Assembly (NCBI GenBank): GCA_016744295.1
Contig: JADGEQ010000001.1
Span: forward strand, 1 to 64,000
DNA: 64,000 nt
Direction: 5' to 3'
DNA from: Desulfobacteraceae bacterium
Lineage (GTDB): Bacteria; Desulfobacterota; Desulfobacteria; Desulfobacterales; Desulfobacteraceae
Of the stretch, positions 56,790 through 59,147 are shown piece after piece; the first letter of the stretch is position 1; the number at the start of each line of letters is the position of its first letter. Below the pieces are notes generated by a model. The model was not told the origin of the DNA. It worked only from the letters and a program-made list of their open reading frames with translations, and searched no databases. Both the position numbers and the translations under genes were made by a program.

Positions 56790-59147
56790 CTATTGCAAAA
56801 CCTCCCAGTATTTTTTATGAATTGCCATGACCCGCTTGAGGCTTGATAAACGGCTGAAATCGCTTTTACGGACTCTGTCGATCTTATCCTGGCCCACACC
56901 CGGCAGGTCACAAACTTGCTTCATGACGGCAAGGCCGCATTCCCGGATACCCTTTATACTGTAGCCCCCTTCCATGACAAAGGCCATCTTCCCGCCCGAA
57001 GAGCGCTCTGCCATTTCAAGAAGAAGTGCGGTGATAAGGGCGTACCCTTGGGGTGTCACTTTCATACCTGCCAGACGGTCATGGATATAAAGATCAAACC
57101 CCATGGAAACAAGAATCATTTCCGGTCTGTATTCCTGGGCAACCGGTCCTGCGAGAAAATAAAGCGCTCTTCCAATATCCCTTGCCCGACTTCCTTTTTC
57201 CATGGGAATGTTGATCGTGAACCCTTTACCCTTTCCTTTGCCCACCTCTTCTGCCCTTCCGGTCCCCGGAAAACAATTTGCCTGGTGAATTGAAACAAAA
57301 AGAACTTCATCCGTGTCATAAAACACTTCCTGTGTGCCATTGCCGTGGTGAGCATCAATGTCGATGATCATCAACCGTGAAACCTTGTACCTTAGTTTCA
57401 GATACCTTGCGCCCAGGGCGATGTTGTTGAAAATACAAAATCCCATCCCCTGGTCGGGCCCGGCATGGTGTCCCGGTGGTCTTACAAAGGCAAAGCCCCG
57501 GGATGCCCTGCCTGCCATTATCTCGTCAAGCAGAGACAAAACACCCCCTGCCGCCAGCCTTGCGGTTGACCAGGATTCTTCTGTGGTCTGTGTATCAAAA
57601 TCAAAGGAGGAAAGAGATTTGCCGGATGTTTTCTCAATTTTCTCAACATAATTACGGGTGTGCACCCAGGTCAGTTCATTCTTTTGGGCAAAGCGCGGAG
57701 TGATCTTGAACCATTTTCCATCCAGGCATTGGGTTTGGAGTAAATCCGCCACCGCATTGATCCGTCTGTAACTTTCAAGATGGGTGACTCCCAGGAGATG
57801 ATTCCGGTATCTTTCATCAATGACAACCGCAACAGGAAGGGTGGAAAAATTTTGTTCCTGCTCTGTTTTGATGCGATCAAAGGCTTTTGCAAGGACAAGC
57901 AAGGCCTCCCCTTGGGAAATACGATTTTTATTTTTCAAAAGCTGGGACACGGCTGTTCTGGCCAAAAGATCGGAACCAGCCGGATGGAGCGCTATTTTTA
58001 TAAACGCCAAAGCTCTCCTGCGCTGTCCTTCTCCCTTGTTTCTGCCCTTGAGGCATCTTATCCGTCCTGGAACCTGTTTACACAAATAATTTGTGATCAA
58101 AGGGTGTTTCTTTTTTGAAAATGCCGCCATTGCTGCAATCGTAACCAAGAGCCGTCCCTGGGGAGATTTGAGGATATACCGATGGGGCCCCCTTTCTATA
58201 AATCCAATGGATATATAAAACCCTTCAGCTTCTATTTCCGATTCAAGAAAGATTTCTTTTACCTCGGGAAAATTGGTTTTCCAAAACATCCAGACACCGG
58301 CCATGAGAAAGGTACCCACCCCTTTAACAGGGCGAGGATGGTTGGGAAAACCTGATTTGCCAAGCGTTGCAACATATTTGACTTCAAATCCCCTGTAAAA
58401 AAGTTTTCTGATTTTTTCCAGAAACATCAGTCCCTGAATTCTTCCCTTTGCAATACAGGTGAAAAGCAGGTGGTCGGTGCCGGAAACCAGGCAGTTTAAT
58501 AAAAAGCGGATATGAAAAAACTCCAGATTCAAACGGGCGGCTTCCATAAGAGTTTCCCGGGAAAAGGAAAACCTCATGAAAAAGGCTTTGGTATAATCGC
58601 TTATCACCCCCTGAAAAAGGACCAGTGGGTCATCGGAAAAATTTTTAAAATCGCTATTGCCAAGGTTGTCGTTTCTTATGTCTGAAAGCTTTTTAAGTCT
58701 CTGCCTCAATGCCCAAAGGCTTTCATCTGCCTGACCCTTTTTTTGAAGTTTCAAGGCGATCTGTTTTTTCAGTCTGTCCAAGGCCAGGTCGATTTCATAA
58801 TCGAGCATCAGACAAAGACCGGCTGTATCGGTTTTTGAAACATGTTTTCCCGGGTTTGCAAAGGGGTGGTGATGGAACAGGCTCCGGGTCTGGGCCATTT
58901 CTCCGTAATGGATCAACAAAACCTGTTCCAGACAGGGGGTACCGCTGGTAAAAAACTGATACTTGTTGACAAAGACTTTCTGGCCCCCAAAAAGAAAATA
59001 CAGTCTTTTATCATCCAGAATTTCAGATGCAGGCAAAAGGTCGATTCTCCCCTTTCCCAGCATGGTATGCAGGGTATAGGCGATTTCCGGCACTCTTGTG
59101 CCGATGGCATCTATGGCCTGCTTGATATTTTCCCGGGTCAGCATCAT
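56790..59147 (-). CDS. Fused GNAT-like acetyltransferase + HDAC-family deacetylase
   Basis: 785 aa; C-terminal RPPGHHAGPDQGMGFCIFNN, DIDAHHGNGTQEVFY, MGFDLYIHDRLAG, EGGYS; middle GNAT-like PVKGVGTFLMAGVWMFW...EAEGFYISIGFIERG. Confidence 0.8.
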   Translation of the reverse strand: MMLTRENIKQAIDAIGTRVPEIAYTLHTMLGKGRIDLLPASEILDDKRLYFLFGGQKVFVNKYQFFTSGTPCLEQVLLIHYGEMAQTRSLFHHHPFANPGKHVSKTDTAGLCLMLDYEIDLALDRLKKQIALKLQKKGQADESLWALRQRLKKLSDIRNDNLGNSDFKNFSDDPLVLFQGVISDYTKAFFMRFSFSRETLMEAARLNLEFFHIRFLLNCLVSGTDHLLFTCIAKGRIQGLMFLEKIRKLFYRGFEVKYVATLGKSGFPNHPRPVKGVGTFLMAGVWMFWKTNFPEVKEIFLESEIEAEGFYISIGFIERGPHRYILKSPQGRLLVTIAAMAAFSKKKHPLITNYLCKQVPGRIRCLKGRNKGEGQRRRALAFIKIALHPAGSDLLARTAVSQLLKNKNRISQGEALLVLAKAFDRIKTEQEQNFSTLPVAVVIDERYRNHLLGVTHLESYRRINAVADLLQTQCLDGKWFKITPRFAQKNELTWVHTRNYVEKIEKTSGKSLSSFDFDTQTTEESWSTARLAAGGVLSLLDEIMAGRASRGFAFVRPPGHHAGPDQGMGFCIFNNIALGARYLKLRYKVSRLMIIDIDAHHGNGTQEVFYDTDEVLFVSIHQANCFPGTGRAEEVGKGKGKGFTINIPMEKGSRARDIGRALYFLAGPVAQEYRPEMILVSMGFDLYIHDRLAGMKVTPQGYALITALLLEMAERSSGGKMAFVMEGGYSIKGIRECGLAVMKQVCDLPGVGQDKIDRVRKSDFSRLSSLKRVMAIHKKYWEVLQ

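Follow-up and report, generated by a model that had tools for sequence, protein, structure and literature searches.

A GNAT and a deacetylase that together make the acetylation of acyl-CoA synthetases reversible are known from Rhodopseudomonas palustris, where BadL and LdaA are separate proteins, unlike the fusion described here. AcuA of Bacillus inactivates acetyl-CoA synthetase by acetylating it, and AcuC removes the acetyl group again (PMC13039410, PMC13121692). AcuC is in turn bound and inhibited by the CBS-ACT protein AcuB, in a manner that depends on adenine nucleotide (PMC13121692) or on Ap4A (PMC13039410); the two studies disagree on the effect of Ap4A (PMC13121692, PMC13039410). Even for AcuA and AcuC, how bacteria control the balance between enzymatic acetylation and deacetylation was unsettled until recently (PMC13121692).

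We analyzed a GNAT-HDAC fusion encoded in a 64,000-nucleotide stretch of a contig from a sulfate-reducer-type bacterium (Desulfobacteraceae), called the window throughout. Its locus resembles acuABC in that a GNAT and an HDAC-fold deacetylase are genetically coupled (here fused, or encoded by adjacent genes in split members) and in that a CBS-domain protein is encoded nearby in many relatives. It differs in that the two domains form one chain in most members, in that the HDAC is class-II-like whereas AcuC is class-I-like (cluster 2c), and in that two-component genes abound at the locus, with no adjacent acs noted. The CBS protein is also different: it has a receiver, and no ACT domain was detected in it, whereas AcuB combines CBS and ACT, and it is missing from the window's clade. 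Because of the HDAC class and of the make-up and patchy presence of this adaptor, the fusion seems best read as a signaling-linked counterpart of Bacillus AcuA/AcuC, not as a member of the acuABC operon family. Reversible acetylation by a coupled GNAT and HDAC is already known; the two-component cassette is the most unusual feature of the fusion.

The fusion frame lies on the minus strand, which the first-pass annotation had not named, and contains no internal stop. All the motifs quoted in that annotation (GHHAGPDQ, DIDAHHGNGTQ, GFDLYIHD, EGGY, KGVGTFL and EAEGFYISIGFIERG) are found in it. The acetyltransferase-like and deacetylase domains that it had placed on one chain were both recovered by Pfam, an AlphaFold2 model and Foldseek, which confirms the fusion and supports its two-domain interpretation. 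The true length of the protein is probably 784 residues, since its second Met, present in at least 90% of aligned rows, is where homologues begin. An NCBIfam search with the window fusion gave no match. The first ~200 residues, initially left unassigned, contain a predicted mostly helical domain of ~170 residues without a match to a named family, and no paralogue of the N-terminal part was found in the window's genome. In the full-length model (pTM 0.57), how the domains are placed relative to each other is not confidently predicted, and confidence is lowest around the linker (residues 428-435). The features of the locus are collected in Table 1.

Table 1. Features of the fusion gene and its neighbors, in window coordinates.
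Feature	Coordinates	Strand	Remarks
GNAT-HDAC fusion protein	56790..59147	(-)	785 aa; 784 from conserved second Met
N-terminal mostly helical domain, residues 1-~176	58620..59147	(-)	conserved in all homologues, also on split version
GNAT fold, residues ~176-330	58158..58622	(-)	GxG loop 276-278, Glu255 on beta4, Tyr311 on alpha4
Helical linker between domains, residues ~345-430	57858..58113	(-)	predicted model
Hist_deacetyl domain, residues 456-743	56919..57782	(-)	Pfam; His560, His561, Asp598, His600, Asp685, Tyr729
Cache sensor with HATPase_c, without HisKA or H-box (upstream gene)	59144..60895	(-)	overlaps fusion start by 4 bases (ATGA)
Small membrane protein, 160 aa	60997..61479	(-)	recurrent cassette member; weak MARVEL match in a relative
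TauE/SafE-family permease	61551..62594	(-)	recurrent cassette member
Sigma-54 activator (NtrC type)	62857..63918	(-)	frame runs past ORF shown; receiver match G000:C51:63904-64266
Sensor histidine kinase (dCache, HisKA with HEINNP, HATPase_c), downstream	54839..56554	(-)	
Single-domain response regulator, 149 aa	54334..54783	(-)	
Na_Ca_ex-like membrane protein (below cut-off)	53309..54154	(-)	recurrent neighbor in window's clade

The proposed profile check for a GNAT succeeded in relatives but not in the window member itself. There, Acetyltransf_10 (Pfam) scored 16.1 bits (E=0.011), below its cut-off of 23.6, which is a limit of sensitivity and not a biological feature. Among 40 scanned homologues, Acetyltransf_10 matched 18 at E<=0.1 (best 3.6e-4) and Acetyltransf_7 matched 8 (best 5.3e-4). 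Used as a profile against PDB sequences, the N-terminal part matched GNATs only below threshold (best E=0.017). Structure prediction was more informative. The AlphaFold2 model of residues 1-352, built from 40 sequences, had a mean pLDDT of 88.6 and a pTM of 0.89, and its residues 176-330 follow the GNAT order beta-alpha-alpha-beta-beta-beta-alpha-beta-alpha-beta with a pLDDT of ~90. Foldseek comparison with the PDB returned GNATs throughout among the 50 matches listed (NatC, Naa50, Ard1, NatD, PCAF, Gcn5 and others): the best match had E=6.9e-5 and probability 1.00, NatC, Naa50 and Ard1 spanned E=7e-5 to 1e-3, likewise at probability 1.00, and target TM-scores were 0.41-0.67 among the listed matches with E<=0.001. 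Identity in the best alignments was 12-21%. The first-pass annotation had named a middle region lacking a GNAT fold as the observation that would speak against it; model topology and Foldseek matches both indicate a GNAT, and on the model the assignment is clear but distant.

The best-conserved positions of the domain match the expected active-site layout of a GNAT. G276, G278, A260, E304, Y311, G315 and F316 are invariant in the 40 aligned sequences; E255 and Y258 are kept in 38 of them, and Lys or Arg occupies position 275, directly before GxG, in 38/40. The pyrophosphate loop thus reads [KR]GxG: the GxG is invariant, and the usual Q/R site (three residues before the first Gly) is variable. 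By motif comparison, the segment LEIKYIAT resembles the beta4 segment bearing the catalytic Glu of Gcn5. With the NatC/Naa30, Naa50, Ard1 and Gcn5/PCAF GNATs, the domain shares the fold, the GxG loop and the alpha4 Tyr; it differs from them by a longer beta4-alpha3 loop and by a Glu where an Asn usually precedes alpha4.

The deacetylase half was recognized directly by Pfam (Hist_deacetyl, E=5.5e-88, 295.6 bits versus a cut-off of 27.9). The zinc and catalytic motifs already noticed at first pass are kept, and the six residues listed for this domain in Table 1 are present in all 33 aligned fused homologues. A test of the zinc ligands, the catalytic His pair and the presence of a catalytic Tyr instead of His placed the domain in class IIb/bacterial cluster 1, and the PDB entries closest by sequence were HDAC6 CD1/CD2, then bacterial HDAH (HdaH). 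Judged by its residues, the domain is complete and class-IIb-like: it shares the catalytic domain, ligands and catalytic Tyr of HDAC6 CD2 and HDAH, although an attached GNAT or ~170-aa N-terminal domain is not known in these enzymes. Polyamine deacetylation by HDAC10 is determined by a Glu gatekeeper (PEG), and a PIS motif also marks polyamine deacetylases (PMC11532494). In the window fusion, the gatekeeper position is Leu692 (DRLAG), and it is Leu in 33/33 fused members; HDAC6 CD2 also carries Leu there and HDAC6 CD1 carries Lys. We rejected an identity as a polyamine deacetylase (HDAC10/ApaH) because the fusion has neither the Glu gatekeeper nor the PIS motif. Given the full catalytic set and a Leu instead of a Glu gatekeeper, the deacetylase is predicted to be active and protein-directed.

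The fusion is conserved well beyond the window. The N-terminal part matched in 47 of 390 genomes of the same order (Desulfobacterales), mostly in frames of 750-900 aa and in one- or two-contig genomes among others; one further match, outside the order, came from 395 genomes sampled from the phylum. Many genera, nearly all of them in this order, have full-length homologues (38-78% identity), and a separate scan of named records retrieved Desulfobacula, Desulfoluna and other Desulfobacterales or deltaproteobacterial MAGs. An assembly artefact was rejected since full-length frames are present in many genomes, complete chromosomes among them. Adjacent genes on the same strand encode the two halves separately in L060, L061, L062, L063, L064 and L067. 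Apparently standalone N-terminal ORFs in G023 and G245 were set aside and not counted as genuine splits: they are truncated at contig ends. The tree requires two changes between split and fused states; its root is not fixed and its basal forks are weakly supported. In one relative (L098, G378:C150), the fusion lies in broken pieces across frames, which suggests decay (or assembly errors).

Genomic context had been left out at first pass; we count it as informative as the fusion itself. Clustering of the neighbors over ~45 loci revealed a conserved cassette, in which a sigma-54 activator and a DUF1232 protein recur in addition to the members marked in Table 1. The upstream Cache-HATPase proteins lack the H-box His in 36/37 rows of the aligned loci, a count that includes one mis-picked receiver (L083); the sole His (L084) falls outside an H-box. 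The N-box Asn of the ATP site is retained in 31 of these 37 proteins, and in the clade around L077 the recognizable HATPase match is lost. The downstream kinases, on the other hand, kept their H-box His in 27/27 aligned loci. Where kinases carry AHEINNPL, the Cache-HATPase proteins of the window (59144-60895) and of ~36 loci carry SQGVFSDLNDIL.

Further upstream, 25 loci encode a REC-CBS protein (e.g., L080:9166-10008, L077:3953-4819, L074:3783-4676). These proteins are possible phosphorylation- and nucleotide-responsive adaptors. Their CBS region matches many CBS proteins, with AcuB among them (E=2.5e-5) and not the best, and no ACT domain was matched in the REC-CBS proteins of the 25 relatives. 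The loci of the window's clade lack the gene, and none was found elsewhere in the window's genome, where the listed matches are confined essentially to the receiver part. Elsewhere in the window (49137-50519), a cytidylate-kinase-like domain and a receiver domain are fused in a 460-aa protein that adjoins a sensor kinase and may be a hybrid signaling protein.

How might such a protein work? We propose that the fusion is a self-contained reversible protein-acetylation switch, in which both domains act on a shared target under the neighboring sensory proteins, a reading that we consider evenly poised between right and wrong. The GNAT would be the writer, a lysine or amino acetyltransferase, and the linker would tie to it the eraser, a Zn-dependent deacetylase of class IIb type. 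The N-terminal domain probably aids recognition of the target or of partners. The location of the fusion in the cassette suggests that its kin use such a switch in connection with environmental sensing, and the sensory proteins encoded beside it would exert the control. Lacking a phospho-acceptor His, the Cache-HATPase protein is less likely to be a kinase than a partner gated by a nucleotide or ligand. How far acetylation outweighs deacetylation may be adjusted by the downstream kinase and receiver, and in many relatives by the REC-CBS (Bateman) protein, much as AcuB inhibits AcuC in Bacillus. Among possible targets, an AMP-forming acyl-CoA synthetase is plausible: elsewhere, the window's genome encodes Acs paralogues that carry the PKTRSGKI[ML]R lysine motif. 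A candidate substrate therefore exists, but nothing ties Acs to the fusion locus, and we noted no acs gene close to the cassette. A bolder version, which we advance tentatively as quite possible if short of probable, is that a single-chain writer-eraser switch conserved in one order takes its direction straight from two-component sensing, with the Cache-HATPase protein as a dedicated non-phosphorylating regulator. If true, histidine-kinase signaling and lysine acetylation would be directly coupled.

The main rival to the writer-eraser switch is that the GNAT is degenerate and binds acetyl-CoA only as a sensor, so that the acetyl-CoA level would allosterically control the attached deacetylase. 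Pseudo-GNAT domains joined to other enzymes exist, and this reading would account for the weak GNAT signal of the window member, for a pyrophosphate loop without the usual Q/R and for a neighborhood in which every protein is sensory, regulatory or membrane-bound. However, the candidate catalytic residues Glu255 and Tyr311 are among the best conserved of the domain, and keeping both would be unexpected for acetyl-CoA sensing alone; we hold a pure sensor to be rather unlikely. That the middle region is not a GNAT at all and its motif matches are coincidental is largely refuted, and we regard it as extremely unlikely: the score of the window member below the Pfam gathering threshold is the point in its favor, against which stand a confidently predicted model of GNAT topology, independent matches of relatives to Pfam and the GNATs-only list of Foldseek matches.

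The nature of the substrate leaves two further alternatives. Both domains could cycle a small molecule, such as a polyamine or another amino compound, through acetylation and deacetylation, and polyamine enzymes do occur among GNATs and HDAC-like amidohydrolases (PMC11532494). We consider this improbable: the HDAC10 Glu gatekeeper is replaced by the Leu of HDAC6 CD2 in every fused member, the neighbors are mostly signaling and not metabolic genes, and the structural matches of the GNAT are mostly protein N-terminal acetyltransferases. Alternatively, and as a sub-case of the switch, the acetylated protein could belong to the signaling machinery (the cassette receivers, the HATPase protein or the sigma-54 activator) instead of being a metabolic enzyme. 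The tight, near-universal linkage with kinase and receiver genes argues for such a target, as does an upstream HATPase gene that overlaps the start of the fusion, but linkage is compatible with regulation in either direction, and we place this sub-case on the unlikely side of possible. For the writer-eraser switch itself, the fused form removes the question of which acetyltransferase partners which deacetylase; together with its conserved sensory neighbors, it makes a tractable system for testing two-component control of protein acetylation.

The first-pass annotation had considered opposing activities on one chain unusual, and our literature searches, which covered open-licence papers only, found no published GNAT-HDAC fusion. 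The architecture is nevertheless less unique than was held, given a second, independent family in related genomes: GNAT-HDAC-GNAT, with seven ORFs of 746-804 aa in which the HDAC is central (L106-L112; e.g., L109:1291-3540, L108:2346-4757). The HDAC matches in the window's genome include no member of this second family. Its C-terminal GNAT matched Acetyltransf_1 far above the Pfam cut-off in 5/5 scanned members (E=1.2e-15 to 4.5e-22), and its N-terminal part is GNAT-like by eye. The HDAC parts of the two families are 38% identical over 170 residues, and their GNATs show no detectable relation beyond the generic motif (probability 1.2%). Like the window fusion, the second family carries writer and eraser folds on one chain within the same order; the domain order differs. 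In one order, then, the fusion of a writer fold with an eraser fold appears to have arisen at least twice, which supports functional coupling and suggests a recurrent selective advantage of co-located activities. In yet another HDAC fusion (L116:1911-3866, 652 aa), universal stress protein domains are joined to an HDAC domain.
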